Shown here: positions 12,425-55,364 of the stretch, in pieces
How positions within the stretch are numbered: the first letter of the stretch is position 1
How the letters are laid out: each line of letters opens with the position of its first letter
Assembly (NCBI RefSeq): GCF_913773735.1
Contig: NZ_CAJYEB010000018.1
Location: forward strand, 62,001 to 126,000
Direction of reading: 5' to 3'
DNA length: 64,000 nt
Source: an uncultured Massilia sp.
Lineage (GTDB): Bacteria > Pseudomonadota > Gammaproteobacteria > Burkholderiales > Burkholderiaceae_D
Position numbers and translations under genes: made by a program
Notes under the pieces: generated by a model
What the model was told of the DNA's origin: nothing
The model's input: only the letters and a program-made list of their open reading frames with translations
Databases searched by the model: none

Positions 12425-13441
12425 TCATAGCAAGGAATCGCGCACGACGCCACGGGCAGCCATGGCACGCTTGAGCTTGACGAGGGCTTCCTGCTGGATC
12501 TGGCGCACCCGCTCGCGCGTCACGCCCATCTCCTCGGCCAGCGTCTCGAGCGTGGCCGGGTCGTCGTTGTCGAGGCCGAAGCGGCGCATCACCACCACGC
12601 GCTGCTTGTCCGGCAGCTTCTGCAGCCAGTCGCGCACCAGCAGCGCCATCTCGTGCTGCTCGGCGCGCGTGTCGGGGCTGACGTCGCCCTCGTCGGGCAG
12701 CATGTCCATCAGGCTGCTTTGCGGGTCGTTGTCGAGCGGGGCGTCGAGCGAGGTCGCGTGTTCGGACAGCGCCAGGATGTCCTGCACCTCCTCCACCGGG
12801 CGCCCGACCAGGCTGGCGATATCCTCGGCGCTGGCTTCCTTGCCGTCGTGGTGCTGGGCTTCCAGGTGGTACTTGGCGCGCAGCACCTGGTTCAGCTCGC
12901 GCACCATGTGCACCGGCAGGCGCACCGTGCGCGCCTGGTTCATGATCGCGCGCTCGATGCTCTGGCGGATCCACCAGGTCGCGTAGGTGGAGAAACGGAA
13001 GCCGCGTTCCGGCTCGAACTTGTCGATCGCGCGCATCAGGCCGATATTGCCTTCCTCGATCAGGTCGAGCAGCACGACGCCGCGGTTGATGTAGTGCTTG
13101 GCGATCGAGACGACCAGGCGCAGGTTGTGCTCGATCATCTTCTGGCGCGCCGCGAAGTCGCCGGACTTGGCCAGCGTGGCGTAGTGCACTTCCTGCTCCG
13201 GGCCCAGCAGCGGCTTGGCGCCGATGCGGTTCAGGTAATGCTGGGTCGTGTCGGTCGAGAGCTCGGCCTGCAGCACGTTGCGCAGCTCGTCGGCCGCGCC
13301 GCCGTCGCCATCGGCCCCGGGCAGCACGTCGGCGCGCCCGGCCCCGTCCGCGAAGTCGCCGCCCTCCAGCGCCTCGTCCGGGACGTCGTCCGGCAAGTTG
13401 TCCGGCGGGTCTGCATCGAGGGGATCGGGGGGAGGCGTCAT
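12425..13441 (-). CDS. rpoS: RNA polymerase sigma factor RpoS (sigma-38)
   Basis: 338 aa. After an acidic N-terminal tail (about 1-60) come sigma region 1.2 ([16 protein letters not shown]), region 2 ([34 protein letters not shown]), region 3 and region 4 with the helix-turn-helix [20 protein letters not shown]. RpoS controls the general stress and stationary-phase response. It follows nlpD by 9 bases, the classical arrangement in which a major rpoS promoter lies inside nlpD. The acidic Asp/Pro-rich extension is longer than in E. coli. Confidence 0.97.
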
Positions 13442-13450
13442 CGGGGTTCC

Positions 13451-14347
13451 CTAGCGGCTGGGCAGGAACCTGGCCGGGTCGACCGGCTTGCCCTGCTGGC
13501 GGATCTCGAAATGGAGTTTGACCGTGTCGGTGTCCGAACTGCCCATTTCGGCGATTACCTGGCCCTTGGTCACGTTCTGACCTTCCTTGACCACGATCGC
13601 GCGATTGTGCGCGTACGCCGACAGCAGGCTGTTGCTGTGCTTGACGATGACCAGATTACCATATCCGCGGATGCCGCTGCCCGCGTACATCACCTTGCCG
13701 GAACCGGCGGCCATCACTTGCTGGCCGAGCTTGCCCGCGATGTCGATGCCCTTGTTCTTGCCTTCGTCGAACGTGGCGACGATGCGGCCGTCCGACGGCC
13801 ACATCCAGCTCAGCTTCTCGTCGTCGTTGGCGGTGACCGTGCTGCCGGCCACGATGCCGCTGGCGGCCACCTTCTCGGCCTTCGGATTGTCTTCCTTCTG
13901 CGCGCTGGCCAGGTTCGACTCGCTGTACGGCTTCTTGTCGCCGCGCGGCTCGGTCTTCTTGGGCGGCGCGGCCGGGCGCTCGGCGCCCGGCATGGAGATC
14001 GGCGCCGTCACCACGGCGCTGGAGCCGCGTTCCGGCGGCGCCACCTTCAGCACCTGGCCGACCTTGATGTCGTCCGGATCGGCCAGGTTGTTCCACGCCA
14101 CCAGGTCGCGGTAGTTCTGGCCATGGTCGAGGGCGATGCGCAGCAGCGTGTCGCCACGGCGCACGGTATAGCTGCCGGCGGCGTCCTGGCGCTCCTCGGC
14201 CGGCGGCGGCGTGGCCGGACGCGGGCGCGAGAGGGGGATGGACGAGGTCGGACGGTCGATCACGGGAGCGACGCGAGTCTCGGTACTGCAGGCGGACAGC
14301 AGGCCGAAGCACATCAAGAACAGGGCTGAGCGGGACGTTGGTTTCAT
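13451..14347 (-). CDS. nlpD: NlpD-like lipoprotein, LysM plus degenerate M23 domain
   Basis: 298 aa. A lipobox signal (CFGLLSACS) is followed by a LysM domain (YTVRRGDTLLRIA to KVGQVLKVA, about 60-105) and a C-terminal LytM/M23 domain (about 180-298). The zinc-ligand motifs are degenerate: NKGID replaces HxxxD and the HxH motif reads AYAHN, so it should lack peptidase activity, as does E. coli NlpD. The known role is activating amidases (AmiC) during septal peptidoglycan splitting. It lies between pcm and rpoS. Confidence 0.94.
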   Translation of the reverse strand: MKPTSRSALFLMCFGLLSACSTETRVAPVIDRPTSSIPLSRPRPATPPPAEERQDAAGSYTVRRGDTLLRIALDHGQNYRDLVAWNNLADPDDIKVGQVLKVAPPERGSSAVVTAPISMPGAERPAAPPKKTEPRGDKKPYSESNLASAQKEDNPKAEKVAASGIVAGSTVTANDDEKLSWMWPSDGRIVATFDEGKNKGIDIAGKLGQQVMAAGSGKVMYAGSGIRGYGNLVIVKHSNSLLSAYAHNRAIVVKEGQNVTKGQVIAEMGSSDTDTVKLHFEIRQQGKPVDPARFLPSR

Positions 14348-14379
14348 TCTCTCTTAATTCTATTGCAACATTCTGGCAT

Positions 14380-15243
14380 TCAGACGATGCCTGGCCGCAG
14401 TGGCACGAAATGGCAGCTTTCCAGCGTTTCGCTGGTCCATTCCGACTTTCCTGTGCGAATAATACGCTGCAGGTGCTGGACCTGCGCGCCAACGGGCGCC
14501 ACCAGCCGGGCGCCGATGGCCATCTGCTCGAGCAGTGCGCGCGGCACGTCGAGTCCGGCCGCCGCGAGGATGATGCCGTCGAACGGTGCTGCCTGCGGGA
14601 GCCCTAGCATACCATCTCCGTACTGCAAGCGCAGATTGGCGATACGCAACGGTCTCAGGTTAGCCTTGGCCAGCTCGTGCAATGGCTTGATGCGCTCGAT
14701 CGAATACACCTCCTTCGCCACGCAGGCCAGTACCGCCGCCTGGTAGCCGCAGCCGGTGCCGATCTCGAGCACGCGCTGCAGCGGCTTGCCGCTACCCTTG
14801 AGCAGCTCGATCATGCGCGCCACGATGTACGGCTGGGAAATCGTCTGGTTGTGCCCGATCGGCAGCGACACGTCGGTGTACGCCTGGGCCGACAGCGCCT
14901 GTTCGATGAACAGGTGGCGCGGGATGGTTTCCAGCGCCGCCAGCACCTGCGGATCCTTGACGCCCTGGCGCGCCACGCGCGCGGCCATGGCGCGGCGCGG
15001 CGCCTCGGTCGCCATCAGGTCGGAGCGGGCCAGCGTCTGTTGCGGCTGGGACGGCCCGGCGGGCGCGGGCACCCCGTGGGCACCATGGGCGCCGCTGCGC
15101 GCCGCCGTGGCCTGGCTGTTGGAGCGGGCATTCTGGGTCGCGGTCTGCGGCGTCGCCACCGGAGCCGGCGCAGCGGGCTTTCGCGTGCCAGTGCCCGTGA
15201 CGGACGACAACGGCAGGGGGAAGTTGCTGCGCTTTTCGCTCAT
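14380..15243 (-). CDS. pcm: Protein-L-isoaspartate O-methyltransferase
   Basis: 287 aa. Residues from about 75 on form the PCMT domain: [20 protein letters not shown], the substrate loop [18 protein letters not shown] and the SAM motif [16 protein letters not shown]. It repairs isoaspartyl residues in aged proteins. The first 75 or so residues are a Pro/Ala/Thr-rich low-complexity extension absent from E. coli Pcm. Its ATG overlaps the surE stop (ATGA at 15240-15243), so the pair is translationally coupled. Confidence 0.95.
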
Positions 15244-15977
15244 CCCAGGCCTCGCCGCAGCAGGTCCAGCTGTTCGCGGTGGGTCAGGTCGACCTGCAGC
15301 GGCGTGATCGAGACCTGGCCGCTGGCAGTGGCGTGGAAATCGGTGCCCTCGCCGGCATCGCGGCAGGCGCCCGGGGCGCCGATCCAGAAGATCTCGCGGC
15401 CGCGCGGGTCCTTGCCGCGGATGACGGGCTCGGCATGGTGGCGGCGGCCCAGCCGCGTCGGCACCAGTGCGCCCATGCGCTCGTACGGCAGGTTCGGGAT
15501 ATTGACGTTCAACAGGAACGGGGCGTCGTCGAGGTCGAAACGGCGCAGCACGATGTCGCGCGCGACCCTGGCCGCCGACTCGACCTCGGCCCAGCCGGAA
15601 TGCACCTGGGAAAAGGCGATCGCCGGGATGCCGAACAGGTAGGCCTCGGTCGCGGCCGCCACCGTGCCCGAGTACAGGGTGTCGTCGCCCATGTTCTGGC
15701 CGTTGTTGATGCCCGAGACGACCAGGTCGGGGAGCGCGTCGAGCATCGCCGTCAGGGCGATGTGCACGCAGTCGGTCGGGGTGCCGTTGACGAAATAAAA
15801 ACCGTTGCCGGCCTTCGTCACCGACAGCGGGCGGTCCAGCGACAGCGAGTTGGACGCGCCCGAGCGGTTGCTGTCGGGCGCCACCACCGTGATGTCGGCG
15901 ACCGGCGCGAGCGCATCGGCCAGGGCCTGGATGCCGGGAGCGAGGTAGCCGTCGTCGTTACTGATAAGGATACGCAT
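15240..15977 (-). CDS. surE: 5'/3'-nucleotidase, stationary-phase survival protein SurE
   Basis: 245 aa. The metal-binding NDDG motif is at residues 7-10 ([16 protein letters not shown]), followed by [15 protein letters not shown] and [22 protein letters not shown], all SurE signatures. It dephosphorylates nucleoside monophosphates. ATG at 15977 starts the conserved [11 protein letters not shown] frame that stays open to 16229 reads through the 11-bp repeat and is not a credible extension. surE heads surE-pcm-nlpD-rpoS. Confidence 0.96.
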
Positions 15978-16086
15978 GCACGCGATTTTACCCGAAGCAA
16001 TGGCTAGATCGACCGATCCGGCTGCACATTTATTGTCCACGCGGCCCATGCGCCGGCCTCGTGCGCGCGTCGTGCCGGCGCCGGAC

Positions 16087-16249
16087 TTGCCGCGTTCCTG
16101 CTCCGTACTTGCCTCGTAATTGCCTCGTAATTGCCTCGCACTTGCCTCGCAATTGCCCGTACTCGCCACGGACTCGCCCGTACTTGCCCCGTCCTTGCCC
16201 CGTACCCGCCACGGACTTGCCTCGGACATGCCATGGACCCGCCCCCGTG
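16087..16249. repeat. Minisatellite of about 15 units, 10-11 bp each
   Basis: Degenerate tandem units (consensus TTGCCYCGTAC on the plus strand) start at 16087 and repeat every 11 bases, two units being 10. The clearest run is TTGCCTCGTAA twice, TTGCCTCGCAC and TTGCCTCGCAA from 16109 to 16152. The period is about one helical turn and not a multiple of three. It fills half of the 325-base gap (15978-16302) between the NTPase gene and surE, so transcripts from the NTPase side would cross it. The rest of the gap shows no gene. Confidence 0.85.
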
Positions 16250-16302: not shown

Positions 16303-17874
16303 TCAGCCCGGCACCAGCGGCCGCCCCCCCGCCGCCCGGATCAGGGCGCCTTCGAGCGAATGCACCTCGTCCTGGGTGAAGGCCAGCAGCGCATCCTTGT
16401 CCCCTTCCTGCAGATAGACCTGCTTGATCATGGCGGCGCCGCGCCGCCGTAGCGGATCCGCGACACTCGGGCGCAGCACGCTGTTGCGCAGGCTGTCGGC
16501 CAGCGCGCGCGCCTCGCGCGGGCTGCGGCTGTCGATCAGCTCTTGCAAACGCGACAATTTATCATCGAGCACGTCGCCACCCTCCCCGCCCGGGCCATCC
16601 TCGCCCGAGCGGTCCCCGCCGTGCCGCTCGGACGGGTCGCCGCCGCCGCGGCGCGTGCCGGCGTGCCCGCGCTTTCCCTCTTCCATCGCGTGCAGGCCGG
16701 CCTCCAGGGCGATCACGTGCTGTTCGATGCGGCGCGCCGCTTCCAGCTCGCCCTGCTGCCCGAGATAGAGCTCGGCCAGCCGGGCCAGCTCGCGCACCAT
16801 GGCCGGGGCCGCCTGGTCGGCGGCGCGCCGGCGCAGCGCCTCGGCGGCCTGCACCAGCCGCACCTCGGCCAGGGGGCGCCAGGGGAATTGCCCCGGTTCC
16901 AGCCATTCGAGCAGCGCCTCGATGCCGCGCAGGGGGCCGAGGCGGTCGCCCTGGCCCGGCTGGGCGCGGCCGGCCGGCGGTGCCGCGCCGAGGATGGCCG
17001 ATTGCGGCAGTTGCACTTCGTCGAAATAGCTGTCGAGCGAGAGGCCGGCCAGGCCGTAGGCCTCGCCCAGCAGCTTTTCGAGGATCGCCTGGTAGCCGCG
17101 CAGGCCCTGGCGCACGTCGCCCAGGCGCCAGCGCCGCCGGCCCTCGGCGGCCGCGTCGACCGGGGCCGGCAGCGGATACACCAGCAGCGGACGCTGTTCG
17201 TCCTCGTGGCTGCAGCGGTAGTCGAGCGCGCGCGCGACCACGCCCTGCAGGCCGTCGAGGCTGCGCGGGTCGGGCGTGAACAGGCCGACCAGCCGGTCGG
17301 GCAGCAGCGCGGTGCAGACGCTGGTGGCCGCCGAGCGGCCGCTGCGGCAGTCGACCAGCACGTGGGCGAAGCGGCGCGCGAGGTGCGCGGCGAAGGCGCG
17401 GAACAGGGCCGGGCAGGCACAGAACAGGGCGTCCCAGTCGAAGCGGTCGACGCGCTCGCCGTAGCTGTCGTCGAAGCGGCCGGCGCGCATCAGGTACAGC
17501 GGCCGGCTGTCGTCGATGCGCTCGATGTGGTCGTCCCAGTCGAGGCTGCCGAGCACGCGCGCGGCCAGCGCCTCGGCGTCGGCGTCCGGCGCGCGGGCGG
17601 GCGCGCGCAGGCGCTCGCGGCAGGCCTCGAACAGCTCGAGCACGCCGGCGCGCCGCATCGCGGGCGGCTGGCCGGGGAAATAGTGGTGCAATCCTGGCGA
17701 TTCGAGGTCCCAGTCGATCATCAGGACCGGTGTCTGTGCGTGCTCGCGCCCGGCCAGCAACCAGGCGGCATGCGCCAGGGCCAGGCTGCGCACTGGGGCG
17801 CTGTCATAGGAATAGAACGTCGTCACCTCGCCGGCCGCTGCGGCCGGTCTTGCGGCGATGCGGTTGGTTTCCAT
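16303..17874 (-). CDS. ParA/MinD-like NTPase of the KGGVGR type with lost P-loop, partner of TIR protein
   Basis: 523 aa from ATG 17874, chosen for its AGGAG ribosome site; ATG 17886 overlaps the TIR stop and adds four residues. The N-terminal domain has the fold markers of ATPases that usually read FYSYKGGVGRSMAL: here [21 protein letters not shown] (residues 20-40), so Lys and all three Gly of the Walker A motif are gone. [13 protein letters not shown] (54-66) and a VDCRSGRS switch-like motif (about 172) remain. A helical middle region follows, then a Gly-rich linker (about 415-445) and a helical C-terminal segment. Relatives occur beside TIR proteins, for example FxsT/FxsC-type pairs in actinobacteria. 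It probably no longer binds ATP in the usual way and may act as a scaffold. Function unknown; a defence or signalling role is inference. Confidence 0.75.
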
Positions 17875-17882
17875 AGGGCTCC

Positions 17883-18491
17883 TCATTTTTTTGGAAAGTC
17901 AGGATCCTGCAGCTCACGCCACGGTGGTGGGACATCGGGGAGCACGAATTGGTTGCAGTCATGCCCGGGCGGCGTGCATTTTTTCAGGTACTGGTAATGG
18001 GCGACGATGCGCCTGACCATCTTGTCGATGTCCGGCAGGAAGTCCGGGTTCGACTTGAGGTCGGCCGTGGCCATCGTGAAGCGCGAGAAGTCGACGTAGA
18101 ACGAGGCGTCGCTGACCTGCGGCGGCAGCCGGTCCGGATGCTGCGTCATGATCACCGGTATGATCAGGCGGCTAGGCAACGGATACCAGGTGCCGCGCTC
18201 CGCCTCGAGCAGGCGCATGGCCGCGTATTCGCGGCGCGTGTAGGCGTGCGCTTCGTATTTCGGCGTGTAGATCAGGATCATGCAGACGCTTTCGCACATC
18301 GCGCGGGCGATCTTGCGGTCGAGGTCGTCTCCTCCTCCGAGCTGTTCGGTATCGACGAACAATTCGTCTTCGTTGTCGAAATAGGGTTCGAGGTAGCAGC
18401 GCAGCGCATCGGCCAGCGTGGTCTTGAACCGCTGCATGAGCTCGTGCCGGCCATGGGCATAGCTGAAGAAACAGCCGTAACGAATGGTCAT
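17883..18491 (-). CDS. TIR domain protein
   Basis: 202 aa. The N-terminal 120 or so residues fit a TIR/SEFIR fold: strand A CFFSYAHG (7-14), DTEQLGGGDDLDRKIARAM (48-65), then CMILIYTPKYEAHAYTRREYAAM (70-92), where Glu88 occupies the place of the catalytic Glu of NADase TIRs. The C-terminal 80 residues are unassigned. Bacterial TIR proteins often deplete NAD+ or make cyclic ADP-ribose signals in phage defence; whether this one is active is not known. The stop TGA overlaps the ATG at 17886 of the NTPase gene, so the pair is an operon. No other gene belongs to it within 200 bases upstream. Confidence 0.78.
   Translation of the reverse strand: MTIRYGCFFSYAHGRHELMQRFKTTLADALRCYLEPYFDNEDELFVDTEQLGGGDDLDRKIARAMCESVCMILIYTPKYEAHAYTRREYAAMRLLEAERGTWYPLPSRLIIPVIMTQHPDRLPPQVSDASFYVDFSRFTMATADLKSNPDFLPDIDKMVRRIVAHYQYLKKCTPPGHDCNQFVLPDVPPPWRELQDPDFPKK
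17886..17892 (-). other. Slippery heptamer A AAA AAA at the TIR/NTPase junction
   Basis: The last TIR codons read CCA AAA AAA TGA. The seven A form an X XXY YYZ heptamer in the correct phase. A -1 shift reads AAA AAA ATG AGG and enters the NTPase frame, which would yield a fusion of about 730 aa. An AGGAG sequence follows within 4 bases. Seen in sequence; frameshifting is inference. Confidence 0.55.
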
Positions 18492-18579: not shown

Positions 18580-18624
18580 GGGGTCGGCACCCGCAGCCGG
18601 GGTCAAGAGGCGCCGACCCCGGCT
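18580..18624. repeat. GGGGTCGGC stem-loop in the divergent gap upstream of the TIR gene
   Basis: Two overlapping inverted repeats occur: GGGGTCGGC/GCCGACCCC (18580-18588 with 18612-18620) and AGCCGGGGTC/GACCCCGGCT (18595-18604 with 18615-18624), the latter followed by TTCTTG. The same GGGGTCGGCGCC core recurs at 25205-25249. Confidence 0.6.
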
Positions 18625-21905: not shown

Positions 21906-23960
21906 TCAGGCGGAATCCGGGCCGTTCTTGAAGAACGCGATCACGTCCGCCTGCACCCGCGTGCGCCGGAAGGGCGGCAGGCTCTGCCAGATGCGGCGGC
22001 CGTAGGACTTGCTGATCACGCGCGGGTCGCACAGCATCAGCACGCCGCGGTCGTCGACGTCGCGGATCAGGCGGCCGGCGCCCTGCTTCAGGTTGATGAT
22101 GGCTTCCGGCAGGGTGTGGTGGGCAAAGCCGTTCATGCCCTTCTTTTCCATCACCTCGATGCGCGCGGCCAGCACCGGGTCGTCGGGCGGCGCGAACGGC
22201 AGCTTGTCGATGATGACCAGCGACAGCGCCTCGCCGCGCACGTCCACGCCTTCCCAGAAGCTCTGGCTGCCGACCAGCACGGCGTTGCCGGCGTTGCGGA
22301 AGGAATCCAGCAGCTCGGTACGGCCGCGCTCGCCCTGCACGAACAGCGGGAATTCCAGGCCGCGCTCGGCGAATTCGGCGCGCAGGCGCTCGGCCACGCG
22401 GTTGACGGCGCGGATGGTGGTGCACAGGAAGAAGGTGCGTCCGCCGGCGGCCTCGATCACCGGCAGCGCCATGTCGACCACGGCGTCCGTGTAGCCCATC
22501 GTGTTCGGTTCCGGCAGGCCGGTCGGCACGTACAGGATGCCCTGCTCCTGGTAGTTGAAGGGGCTGGGCCAGGTGCGCGCCGGCTCGCCCGTCATGCCGA
22601 GCTGGGCCGAGAAATGCTTGAAGTCGTTCTTCACGGCCAGCGTGGCCGAGGTGAAGATCCAGCTGCGCGGCGTGCCGGCGCGCTGGCCGGCGAAGATCGG
22701 CGCGACCGACAGCGGCGTCTTGTGCAGTTGCAGCGAGGAGGCGAACGCCTCGACCCACAGCACGGCGTCGTCGCCCTCGATTTCCTTGCTCTTCTTCGGC
22801 TCGGATTTCCAGGCCTTGTACTGTTCCAGCAGCTCGACGGCGCGCACGCGGCACTGTTCCAGCGTCTCGGCGCGCTCGGCGTTGTCTTCCAGTACGTCGA
22901 TCAGGCCCTCGAGTTCTTCCTTCAGCTTGTCCAGCGCCGGGAAGAAACCGGAATCCGGCAGGATCTGCGGCAGCGACAGGCGCATGCTGTCCTGCGGGAA
23001 GGTCAGGCGCAGGTCGCGCGCGGCCTTCTCGACCACGGTGACGACCTTGGCCCAGTCGACGCCGGCGCGCGCATGTGCCAGGCCTTCGGCCAGCACGTCG
23101 CGGCACAGCTCCAGCACCTGCGAGGTCGAGACGGTGGTGCCGAAGAACAGCGTCGCCACTTCGGGCAGCTGGTGCGCCTCGTCGAAGATGATGGTGTTGG
23201 CGGACGGCAGCAGCTCGGCCATGCCGCCTTCCTTCAGCGCCACGTCGGCGAAGAACAGGTGGTGGTTGACGACCACCACGTCGGCCTGCTGGGCCTCGCG
23301 GCGCGCCTTCATCACGAAGCAGTCCTGGTAGTACTGGCATTCCTGGCCCACGCAGTTCTCGCGGGTGGACGTCACCAGGTTCCAGACCGACGCCGTTTCC
23401 GGCACCTTGGCCAGCTCGGCCTTGTCGCCGGAATTGCTCATCTTCACGAAACGCGAGATCTCGCGCAGGTGGCCGACGTCGTCGCGCGAGGTCAGGCGCC
23501 CGTTCTGCAGCGTGCGTTCCAGGTGGTAGTGGCAGACGTAGTTCGAGCGGCCCTTGAGCAGCGCCACCGAGACCGGCGCGCGCAGCGCGGCGCGCACGTT
23601 CGGGATGTCGCGCGAGAACAACTGGTCCTGCAGGTTCTTGGTGCCGGTGGAGACGATGGTCTTGCCGCCCCACAGCAGCGCCGGCACCAGGTAGGCGAAG
23701 GTCTTGCCCGTGCCGGTGCCGGCCTCGGCGATCAGGGTGCCCTGCTTGCCGATGGCGTCGGCGATCGCCTTGGCCATCTCGGTCTGCGACTGGCGCGGGC
23801 GGAAGCTGCCGACGGCGGGCGCGAGCGGGCCGCCCGCGCCGAAGATGCGGTCGACTTCGTCGTCGTATTTGCCGGGAGGCTGCGCCGGCGCGCCAGCGGT
23901 GGCGTCGGCCGGGAGGGACTCGTCGGCGGACGAGCCGGGTACGGGAAGATGATCGGTCAA
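21906..23960 (-). CDS. DinG/YoaA-family ATP-dependent DNA helicase
   Basis: 684 aa XPD/Rad3-type superfamily 2 helicase. Walker A is AEAGTGTGKTFAYL (near residue 80) and Walker B is IIFDEAHQL. Four Cys typical of the Fe-S domain are seen (NYVCHYH and ENCVGQECQYYQDC). The C-terminal motor ends LKQGAGRLIRD. YoaA and DinG help resolve damaged forks and R-loops. The N-terminal 40 residues are low complexity. A GTP/DnaQ domain is absent, so YoaA-like is more likely than the Gram-positive DinG. Confidence 0.9.
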   Translation of the reverse strand: MTDHLPVPGSSADESLPADATAGAPAQPPGKYDDEVDRIFGAGGPLAPAVGSFRPRQSQTEMAKAIADAIGKQGTLIAEAGTGTGKTFAYLVPALLWGGKTIVSTGTKNLQDQLFSRDIPNVRAALRAPVSVALLKGRSNYVCHYHLERTLQNGRLTSRDDVGHLREISRFVKMSNSGDKAELAKVPETASVWNLVTSTRENCVGQECQYYQDCFVMKARREAQQADVVVVNHHLFFADVALKEGGMAELLPSANTIIFDEAHQLPEVATLFFGTTVSTSQVLELCRDVLAEGLAHARAGVDWAKVVTVVEKAARDLRLTFPQDSMRLSLPQILPDSGFFPALDKLKEELEGLIDVLEDNAERAETLEQCRVRAVELLEQYKAWKSEPKKSKEIEGDDAVLWVEAFASSLQLHKTPLSVAPIFAGQRAGTPRSWIFTSATLAVKNDFKHFSAQLGMTGEPARTWPSPFNYQEQGILYVPTGLPEPNTMGYTDAVVDMALPVIEAAGGRTFFLCTTIRAVNRVAERLRAEFAERGLEFPLFVQGERGRTELLDSFRNAGNAVLVGSQSFWEGVDVRGEALSLVIIDKLPFAPPDDPVLAARIEVMEKKGMNGFAHHTLPEAIINLKQGAGRLIRDVDDRGVLMLCDPRVISKSYGRRIWQSLPPFRRTRVQADVIAFFKNGPDSA

Positions 23961-25166: not shown

Positions 25167-25249
25167 GGTGCGCTCGGGGAGCGCACCCTACGCGCCGTTC
25201 AACACCGGGGTCGGCGCCCTGGAACATCGACACCGGGCGCCGACCCCGG
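25167..25249. repeat. Two palindromes between convergent genes
   Basis: GGTGCGCTC/GAGCGCACC (25167-25175 with 25179-25187) forms a 9-bp hairpin. CCGGGGTCGGCGCCC and its perfect complement (25205-25219 with 25235-25249) form a 15-bp hairpin. They fill the 99-base gap between the PP2C gene and the lipoprotein gene and probably serve as a bidirectional terminator. The second shares its core with 18580-18624. Confidence 0.75.
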
Positions 25250-50382: not shown

Positions 50383-52122
50383 TTGCGCTTCTCGATCGGC
50401 CACCGCCTGTTCGCCTCGGTCCTGCTGGCGATCCTCGCGGTGGCGGCCGGCGCCGTGTTCCTGCTGCGCCAGAACGTGCTGGCCGGCTTCGGCGACTATG
50501 CCGCGGCCATCGAACTCGACCGCCTGGAAGAACTGTCGGCGGCGCTCGCGACGCGCTACCGCGCCACGCGTGGCTGGACCTTCATCCCCGCCGACGGCCG
50601 GCGCGACTGGATCGCGGGCGAGCTGGAACGCCTGCAGCAGGCGCGCGACCAGGTGGCGCCGGTATCGCCGGTGGCGGCGGTGGCGCCCGTAGCGCCGGTC
50701 GCGCCGGTCGCGCCGGCGGCACCGGCGGCGGAGGTGGCGGCGGTAGCGCCGGTGGCGCCGGTGGCGCCGGTGGCGCCGGTGGCGCCGGCGGCTCCGGCGG
50801 CTCCGGCAGCGCCGGCGGCGCCCGTCGTCCCCGCCGCCCCGGCGCGCGCCGCCGGCTGGACGGCCCTCCTCGCGCCACCGGCCCCACCGGCCCCGCCCGC
50901 GGCGCCGCTGCCGCCGCTGCCGCCGCCGCGCCTGCCGCCGTCGCACCCGCCGTCGCCCTCGCCGTCCGGCGGCGCCCCCGCGCCGCCCCTCCCGGACGAC
51001 GCGCTGCCGCTGGCGCGCCGCATCACCCTCTTCGATGCCGACGGCGCCTGGCTGGCCGGCCGCCGCGCCGCCGCGGCGGCCATGCCGGCGCCGGCGCGCC
51101 GCGCCATCGAGGTCGACGGCCGCACCGTCGGCTGGCTGGCGGTGGCGCGCAGCCCCCGCCCCGACGACGCCATGGCCTACGCCTTCCTGGAGCAGCTGGG
51201 CAAGAGCCTGTGGCTGATCGTGGCCGGCGCCGTGGCGCTGTCCGCGCTTGCCGCGATGCTGCTGGCGCGCCATTTCCGCCGTCCGATCCTCGCGCTCGAG
51301 CATGGCGCGCGCCGCCTGGCCGACGGCCGCTTCGACGTGCGCCTGGCGGCCGGGCGCAGCGACGAACTGGGCAACCTGGCGCGCCACTTCAATGCGCTGG
51401 CGCAGCGCCTGGCCGGCGCCGAGGAAGCGCGCCGCCAGTGGGTGGCCGACACCTCGCACGAACTGCGCACGCCGCTGGCCGTGCTGCGCGCCCAGCTCGA
51501 GGCGCTGCAGGACGGCGTGCGCGCCGCCACCCCGGCCAATGTCGACGCCATGCTGCGCCAGGTGCTGGCCCTGAACAAGCTGATCGACGAGCTGTATGCG
51601 CTGGCGCGCGCCGACGTCGGCGCCCTCGACTGCGCGCTGGTCCCGCTCGACCTGTGGACGCTGGCCACGGAGCGCGCCGCGGCCTTCGGCGAGCGCCTGC
51701 GCGGCGCCGGCCTGGCGCTGGAGATCGGCCCCGCGCCGTCCGACGCCGTGGTGCTGGCCGACCCGGACCGCATGCGCCAGGTGCTCGACAACCTGTTCGA
51801 GAACAGCCTGCGCTACACGGCCGCGGGCGGGCGCGTGCACCTGCATGCGCACGTGGCGGCAGCCGAGCAGGCCCTGCAGGTGCATCTCGACGACAGCGCC
51901 CCGGGCGTGCCGGACGGCGCGCTGGAACGCCTGGCCGACCGCTTCTACCGGGTCGACGCCTCGCGCAGCCGCGCCCACGGCGGCGCCGGCCTGGGCCTGG
52001 CGCTGTGCCGGCGCCTGCTCGATGCGCAGGGTGCCGGCCTGCGCTTCGCGCATTCGCCGCTGCGCGGCCTGCGCGCCACCATCGTCATGCCGCTGGCACG
52101 CCGGATCGAGGAGTCCGCATGA
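50383..52122 (+). CDS. BaeS-like sensor histidine kinase with Val-Ala-Pro expanded sensor domain
   Basis: 579 aa from TTG 50383 with GGAGA upstream; no ATG fits before the membrane helix ([19 protein letters not shown], 10-28). The periplasmic part begins normally (to about 90), then about 115 residues are low complexity: (VAP)n and (AAP)n at 91-155 and Pro-rich 164-205. A short ordered segment ([19 protein letters not shown]) precedes the second helix ([18 protein letters not shown]), HAMP, HisKA ([16 protein letters not shown]) and HATPase ([26 protein letters not shown]). Catalytic parts are intact and BaeS-like. The expansion is unlike usual BaeS sensors. Confidence 0.88.
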
Positions 52123-54613: not shown

Positions 54614-54663
54614 GAGCTGAGCTGAGCTGAGCTGAGCTGAGTTGAGTTGCGCTGCGCTGCGCT
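54614..54663. repeat. Pentanucleotide tandem repeat at a stop codon
   Basis: Ten units of 5 bp: GAGCT five times, GAGTT twice, GCGCT three times. The last unit touches the stop codon of the next gene (54663-54665, minus strand). Length change here would not alter that protein but could change its 3' end and the downstream leader. Confidence 0.9.
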
Positions 54664-55364
54664 CAGCGCAGCACCGGCGCCGCCACGGTCAGCCCCAGCG
54701 TCGCGTAGCGCTCCGGACCGCCGCGCCCCAGGCGCCGGCCGACGCCCGCGTCCAGCGCCAGCCGGTCCGGGATGACATCCAGGTGCAGCCCGGCCTGGGC
54801 ATGGCTGTGCGCGCGCTGCGCGCCGTATGCTTCCAGCGTCAGGGTCAACGGTCCCGCCGCAGCCCATTCCGTGCCCACCGCCCACAGCGCGCCGCCGCGG
54901 CGCGTGGCCTGCGGACGCGACCAGCCGGCATTCAGGTGCACCAGCACGCGGTCGTCCAGCAGCGACAGCGACAGCGGCGCCAGTACCGCCAGGTCGCCGG
55001 ACAGGCCGTGGCCCTGGCGGTACTGGTCGGCGATGGTCAGGCCGAGGCCCCAGCCGTTCTTTTCCAGCGGCCGCAGGATGGTCTTGGCCTGCAGCATGTG
55101 CGAGCGGTAGGCGCCGGCGCCGTCCGGGCCGATCCGGCCCGCGCCCACGCCCAGTTCCCAGCCACCGACGCGGCAGGCCGGCATCGCCCAGTATTCGGTC
55201 TGGTCCTGCGGGCGTTGCGTCCACGCTTCAAGCTGGCAATTGCCCGGATCGGCGATGGTCGCATCGTCGGTGACCATGGGACGGCCGGCGTATGCGGCCT
55301 GGCAGGCGCACAGGGCGGCAGCGGCGGCGGCGGCGAACGCGCGCAGGAAGAGAACTGGTGTCAT
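54663..55364 (-). CDS. Outer-membrane beta-barrel-like protein of unknown function
   Basis: 233 aa. Signal peptide (about 1-26, CACQAAYAGRP) then MVTDDATIADPGNCQLEAWT and GWELGVGAGRIGPDGAG, with alternating hydrophobic pattern and end GLTVAAPVLR. This looks like a small outer-membrane barrel of the type annotated as hypothetical or transporter. CQAAYAGRPMVTDDA could be the mature N-terminus. No name assigned. Transcribed towards the metalloprotease gene. Confidence 0.68.
   Translation of the reverse strand: MTPVLFLRAFAAAAAAALCACQAAYAGRPMVTDDATIADPGNCQLEAWTQRPQDQTEYWAMPACRVGGWELGVGAGRIGPDGAGAYRSHMLQAKTILRPLEKNGWGLGLTIADQYRQGHGLSGDLAVLAPLSLSLLDDRVLVHLNAGWSRPQATRRGGALWAVGTEWAAAGPLTLTLEAYGAQRAHSHAQAGLHLDVIPDRLALDAGVGRRLGRGGPERYATLGLTVAAPVLR

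Follow-up and report, generated by a model that had tools for sequence, protein, structure and literature searches.

What is a TIR protein doing beside an NTPase that has lost its P-loop? The question is raised by two overlapping genes in the window, a 64,000-nucleotide stretch of DNA from an uncultured Massilia sp. Bacterial TIR genes have mostly been studied as accessory defence genes, and a sequence-only reading of this DNA had set the pair among phage-defence candidates, with a partner that would no longer use ATP as a switch. Here we follow both genes through their homologues, with a focus on how the nucleotide site was lost, whether the partner is still under selection, and where the pair resides.

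The TIR gene and its partner

The TIR-domain protein (17883-18491, minus strand; 202 aa) was taken from the ORF listing and matches Pfam TIR_2 (PF13676) at 39.7 bits, above the gathering cut-off of 28. Its AlphaFold model (pLDDT 86.9, pTM 0.85) shows the flavodoxin-like strand and helix order of a TIR domain, and 49 of the 50 PDB fold matches listed are TIR-domain proteins—SPARTA, plant NLRs, and SARM1 among them. Glu88 is placed close to the beginning of helix C (residues 83-99), and the residue four positions before it is Tyr or Phe in 125 of 127 distinct rows. The sequence-only reading had put this Glu in the catalytic place, and had named a missing strand order or Glu as grounds against itself; both are present, the first in the model and the second as an invariant residue in 127/127 rows. 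The NADase chemistry of TIR domains is known. Judged by its position, Glu88 is the predicted catalytic residue, and the protein is a putative NADase.

The partner (16303-17886, minus strand; 527 aa) is encoded by an ORF that overlaps the TIR gene by 4 bp on the same strand, and both ORFs lie where they had been reported. A Pfam scan of the partner returned no match and no TPR. The NCBIfam model AAA_KGGVGR (NF047398) aligns with residues 20-218 at 76.8 bits, under its curated cut-off of 90. The top PDB fold matches of the AlphaFold model (pLDDT 78.7, pTM 0.67) are ParA/MinD-type ATPases, namely 3ea0 (a ParA-family ATPase) and 1hyq (MinD). The predicted structure thus has the ParA/MinD (SIMIBI) fold, and we refer to the protein as a pseudo-NTPase on the basis of its ORF, its NCBIfam and fold matches, and the state of its nucleotide site.

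That site is eroded. The KGGxGR[ST] P-loop is absent; a degenerate loop stands there instead (17785-17817, minus strand; residues 24-34), which includes DSAPVRS and carries Asp28 at the position of the signature Lys, with Arg33 kept. The signature Lys has a role in ParA/MinD dimers. The Walker B/switch II segment (17311-17352, minus strand; residues 179-192) has Ala186 for the switch-II Asp and Ser189 for Gly. Two motifs that had been singled out as remaining were both found in the window partner: VDCRSG, and the A-prime motif DWDLESPGL (17689-17715, minus strand; residues 58-66), whose Asp58 and Asp60 occur in 127/127 homologues.

A single, clade-wide loss of the P-loop

Site 28 divides the 127 distinct homologues into 52 with Lys, 54 with Glu, and 21 with Asp. 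The Lys set consists of sister genera and one distant relative, and the acidic set (n = 75, counted from rows selected for a length of at least 330 aa) of the window's genus and two others. All 55 loci of the window's genus with a readable motif are acidic (Glu in 35, Asp in 20), as are 20/20 loci of genera g4 and g12, sampled as 20 loci from 22 genomes with a TIR match. The earlier suspicion that the loss is consistent was correct—the change is real and old, every one of the 75 clade homologues has an acid at the Lys site, and none of the clade loci with a readable motif has it restored. The motif given as usual needs one amendment: the sister genera do have a P-loop, but mostly as KGGTGRT (47/52) rather than KGGVGRS.

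The loss has one origin on the tree. With the P-loop and switch-II columns removed, the partner tree needs one change at site 28 (SH-aLRT 99), as does a 112-row tree with the motif columns included (support 98), and a surE+rpoS+YoaA marker tree of 73 rows likewise splits Lys from Glu/Asp (support 98). Two changes are required on the TIR tree, a short one with weak resolution. Given a single change on the tree and an acid in all 75 distinct clade homologues, the loss is not due to chance. The KGG of the sister genera reads as ancestral because it is found both in a distant Desulfobulbaceae relative (L080, KGGTGRS) and in the family's own motif.

Other parts of the site changed as well. Gly32 is gone and site 189 is Ser or Ala rather than Gly in 75/75 clade members; the switch-II Asp186 is present in 52/52 P-loop homologues vs 1/75 clade members; and the Walker B Asp179 is missing in 21/75. 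Two further sites hold Arg in all or almost all P-loop homologues; within the clade, Arg is found at site 207 in 4/75 members and at site 242 in none of 75. The profile scores follow the same division—P-loop homologues L027, L024, and L033 reach 119.7, 130.7, and 126.4 bits with AAA_KGGVGR (119.7 to 131.6 with L080 included), over the cut-off, and the P-loop-less L018 and L076 reach 69.2 and 62.2 bits. Taken together, the loss of ATP switching in the partner is well supported, and the data suggest that it now works without ATP as a switch; ATP binding itself has probably been lost too.

What was kept is equally consistent. Arg33 is found in 127/127 homologues, Asp58, Asp60, Gly183, and Arg184 in 75/75 clade members, and site 34 is Ser or Asn in 75/75. 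This pattern could be read as a site that still holds a nucleotide, or some other phosphate ligand, by non-canonical contacts with Arg33, Ser34, and the two retained Asp residues, and the invariance of Arg33, Asp58, and Asp60 speaks for it. We consider it very improbable, however, given that an acid has replaced the signature Lys and Gly32 has been lost throughout the clade, with the switch-II Asp lost in 74/75 members and the Walker B Asp in the 21 mentioned above.

Glu is one base change from Lys, so selection on the first step is not required. Within the clade, site 28 has changed twice, between Glu and Asp only, vs a median of 8 changes per site; such a low count is not rare, since 89/327 sites show two or fewer. 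Sites 29-32 changed 7, 4, 15, and 8 times, and Arg33 never.

A wide NF047398 search placed 37/398 genomes over the cut-off, but it ranks KGG proteins first and so cannot tell whether other lineages have lost the P-loop too; a TIR profile run on 30 loci from this search found no neighbouring TIR within ~1.5 kb. Separate NTPase genes with intact motifs were also encountered. One genome of the window's genus (G012, contig C3; L155) has a KGGVGRT NTPase gene on another contig than the pair, and in L169 and L170 a KGGVGRS NTPase domain forms part of a fusion protein that also has Mrr-type restriction endonuclease and NACHT domains.

The partner also varies in length. TPR arrays are present in 5/6 relatives scanned (L080 being the one without), and also in L078. 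The window's subclade, defined by DS-type motifs (n = 20), has partners of 406-544 aa, vs a median of 655.5 aa in the KGG..RT group. A TPR scan of 8 of those 20 members found none, and four short subclade partners examined closely show no TPR homology beyond the stop.

Selection on the partner

A partner that has lost its P-loop may simply be on its way out. On this reading, the TIR is independent of the NTPase, and the partner is eroding under weak selection and survives through linkage or folding constraints. We treat slow decay as the main rival of the reading developed below, and a serious one, although on balance we think it the less likely of the two.

Rates of change bear on it from both sides. 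The NTPase domain has a median dN/dS of 0.264 in the P-loop-less clade (0.10-0.65, maximum 0.652; 32 disjoint pairs) vs 0.067 in the P-loop clade (0.018-0.566; 22 pairs), values that are comparative only because Nei-Gojobori estimates were used on GC-rich genes whose synonymous sites saturate. A ratio four times that of the P-loop clade speaks for decay; however, none of the 32 pairs exceeds the maximum above, and the P-loop-less partner is under purifying selection, though relaxed. The TIR medians are also higher in the P-loop-less clade (0.107 vs 0.041), so the relaxation is partly common to both genes. The ratio dN(NTPase)/dN(TIR) is 2.36 in the P-loop-less clade and 1.09 in the P-loop clade.

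Interrupted partners point in the same two directions. Homology continues past a stop in 4/72 distinct clade members with room to check, vs 0/50 P-loop homologues: an in-frame stop at codon 71 in L131 (= L073; genome G050), homology that resumes in another frame in L108 (genome G038) and L079, and homology that extends past an in-frame stop in L125 (genome G034). Beside three of these partners the TIR has its full length, and in L079 it is 175 aa; where a full-length TIR accompanies an interrupted partner, either the TIR does not strictly depend on an intact partner or the interruptions are sequencing errors. The sequence of losses—first the P-loop, then Asp179 in part of the clade and TPRs in another part—also looks like progressive erosion.

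Against decay, 68 of the 72 members checked carry no interruption, and 34/327 sites are invariant across the clade (Arg33, Asp58, Asp60, Pro64, Leu66, Gly183, and Arg184 among them). The acid at site 28 and Arg33 stand in all 75 rows, these having been chosen for a length of at least 330 aa, and the 4-bp overlap with the TIR gene is present in 43/75. The partner is still selected in most lineages. A pseudogene reading was considered for the clade as a whole and is not supported by dN/dS, though four members are interrupted.

Locus and inheritance

The pair adjoins a co-directional surE-pcm-nlpD-rpoS block (12425-15977, minus strand), recognized by its NCBIfam names and conserved order; SurE, L-isoaspartate methyltransferase, and RpoS score over their cut-offs and NlpD below. 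NCBIfam named seven neighbours in all, the further ones being a PIG3-type quinone oxidoreductase (below cut-off), an ArgP-type regulator, and the dinG-like helicase YoaA (21906-23960; NF053712, 873.5 bits). Between the partner and surE lies an 11-bp minisatellite of 13.6 copies (16085-16232, also delimited as 16085-16245). The partner-surE gap is 325 bp in the window vs 118 bp in the nearest relative (L002), and the minisatellite looks like a recent local expansion.

Several other small features were recorded in the window. A pair of inverted 9-mers, GGGGTCGGC ... GCCGACCCC, with starts 32 bases apart, occurs as a REP-like hairpin at 18580-18620 and at 25207-25247; one copy lies within the divergent region between the quinone reductase and the TIR gene. 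A 9-bp repeat is present in 19 copies at 50652-50822, and the pentanucleotide GAGCT in 10.8 copies at 54614-54667. The promoter and terminator scan lists sites on the plus strand only.

The same arrangement recurs across relatives. A contig scan found 119, of which the best 80 were kept; these amount to 79 distinct loci, 78 from the Massilia/Duganella/Janthinobacterium group and one (L080) from Desulfobulbaceae. Of the best 80 of 119, 79 carry the TIR, and the remaining one sits on a contig whose start falls within the partner gene. In 76 of the 80, surE lies in the locus; the four without it are L080, two loci at contig ends, and a short excerpt of the window genome. Within the genus of the window, 57/62 genomes have the TIR and 56/62 the partner, and the one difference (G049) is a contig that ends within the TIR gene. 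Across a drawn sample of 392 genomes of the family, the TIR occurs in 163 genomes and 5/44 genera, with one match per genome and two in a single genome.

The five genomes of the window's genus without the pair still have the site. The quinone reductase adjoins surE in G014, YoaA adjoins surE in G008, G009, and G039, and in G040 what lies between surE and the quinone reductase is a leftover TPR segment of the partner, a locus in which neither the TIR nor the NTPase domain gives a match. The TIR and the NTPase domain were thus lost jointly in all five, by at least three kinds of deletion. That the two genes co-occur is clear, then, from loci, genomes, and losses alike. Joint loss fits functional coupling, but it also fits plain linkage, and linkage alone could explain both the joint presence and the joint loss.

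The pair is vertically inherited at one fixed site and is near-core in Massilia. The placement between the quinone reductase and the surE-rpoS block, with a minisatellite at its flank, is as originally described; the term island is not appropriate for a site that is fixed across the clade. A near-core, slowly evolving TIR gene beside the stationary-phase surE-pcm-nlpD-rpoS block points to a standing role in cell physiology.

One published observation offered a regulatory lead. In PMC5080296, a 'TIR domain containing protein', Jab_2c19720, is core except in one strain, is lowered in a JAI-1 synthase mutant of strain HH01, and carries a JAI-1 motif. Jab_2c19720 may be the TIR gene of the pair, which appears to be the sole TIR_2 gene in 16/16 sampled genomes of two P-loop genera (by the TIR_2 model, with the place matched to the family search for 15/16, G208 excepted). 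The quorum-sensing lead is nonetheless not supported by a search for the motif—the published sequence, TTGA-N6/7-TCAA, is absent within 350 bp upstream of the TIR in 52/52 P-loop rows, and is present in 3/75 others.

Is the pair a defence system?

TIR proteins are common in defence, and an anti-phage or cell-suicide module is another reading of this pair, with the inactive NTPase as the receptor (e.g., for nucleic acid). In L080 (153-3427), the gene after a related TIR gene encodes a KGGTGRS NTPase joined to TIR_2, NB-ARC, and APAF1_C domains, an immune-receptor-like layout, and in PADLOC the P-loop homologues hit the candidate family PDC-M28B with scores of up to 55.2 bits (L024). Precedents are also available: inactive STAND NTPases have been proposed as receptors in PMC8195603 (eLife 2021), and MinD/ParA-like domains predicted to be inactive are described in conflict systems in PMC7159879.

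The evidence from the window and its genus nevertheless makes an immune sensor doubtful. The locus is fixed, vertically inherited, and near-core, the TIR evolves slowly, and searches of a plasmid collection and a phage collection gave no match to the pair, although records very near the window genome may be left out of these. Carriage by phage or plasmid is accordingly rejected for the collections searched, and nothing in the location is variable, mobile, or island-like. PADLOC assigns no established defence family to the window proteins; its sole match under E 1e-3 is PDC-M28B on the partner (27.8 bits), and the best match of the TIR has E 0.002. The phage-defence claim of the sequence-only reading is not supported, given the fixed site, the presence in 57/62 genomes, the lack of copies in the plasmid and phage collections searched, and the weak PADLOC matches of the window proteins, though P-loop homologues match PDC-M28B more strongly.

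A proposed scaffold in place of a switch

The explanation we prefer, tentatively and at somewhat less than an even chance, is that the partner has become a scaffold or regulator that serves a core TIR enzyme independently of nucleotide, after a single loss of the nucleotide site. The ancestral partner, still found in Janthinobacterium, Duganella, and Rugamonas, would have been a ParA/MinD NTPase of the KGGTGR type that carried a TPR array and acted as a sensor or switch, its nucleotide state controlling the TIR. The site was then lost once, in the ancestor shared by Massilia and two sister genera: Lys28 became Glu or Asp, a larger residue took the place of Gly32, and the switch-II Asp disappeared. 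The partner would have been retained for binding the TIR—probably locked in a single state in which the new acid faces Arg33, the residue that never changes—and the window's subclade would subsequently have lost the TPR array too. A scaffolding or regulatory role is inferred from the gene overlap and from the way in which both genes are present or lost together; direct contact with the TIR and the locked state are likewise predictions.

A more specific version holds that a core, non-mobile TIR is run by a once-converted partner, from ATP switch to permanently set scaffold, through a fixed charge swap from Lys to Glu/Asp, with an invariant Arg across from it substituting for the nucleotide contact. 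This fuller proposal we regard as rather unlikely. The intact P-loop version lives on in the sister genera, and if the proposal is true, one operon can be seen before and after the conversion. In any case, a P-loop NTPase whose nucleotide site was lost once, at a point that can be placed on the tree, has been kept through a whole species radiation. The intact-motif sisters are culturable, so the role of the ATP switch in TIR/KGGVGR pairs can be tested by comparison.

Comparison with known systems

SPARTA, plant NLR, SARM1, and bacterial NADase TIRs are the best fold matches of the window TIR and share its helix-C Glu with an aromatic residue at -4. In contrast to those proteins, the activity of the window TIR is a predicted one, and identity is just 8-22% in the 50 fold matches listed. 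In SPARTA/NLR/SARM1-type systems the control partners are Ago, NB-ARC, and ARM; Pfam and NCBIfam gave no match to any of these in the window pair. The TIR-like FxsC (NF040588) provides, through its N-terminal TIR-like domain, the top NCBIfam match of the window TIR, but at 37.7 bits this is far under the cut-off of 130, and no radical SAM protein is present among the seven named neighbours. For the partner, the closest described family is AAA_KGGVGR (NF047398)—the window protein has its ParA/MinD-type domain, and P-loop homologues of the pair pass the cut-off, but the window protein itself is without the defining motif and falls short at the score given above.

The literature searched contains no account of this pair, of its core status, or of a single loss set against intact-motif sisters. 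Inactive ParA/MinD domains have been described in conflict-type settings before, however. PMC7159879 (eLife 2020) gives the MinD/ParA-like domains among the effectors of its conflict systems as predicted to be inactive, and reports an inactive domain of this type in standalone peptide-processing systems. The VMAP-ternary and FxSxx-type peptide systems treated there resemble the window pair in their predicted-inactive MinD/ParA-like domain and in their use of TIR and TPRs. The window pair differs in three respects: it consists of two separate genes at a fixed housekeeping site, it has no MoxR or vWA gene among its seven named neighbours, and its P-loop loss has a definable position on a tree that includes relatives with the motif intact.
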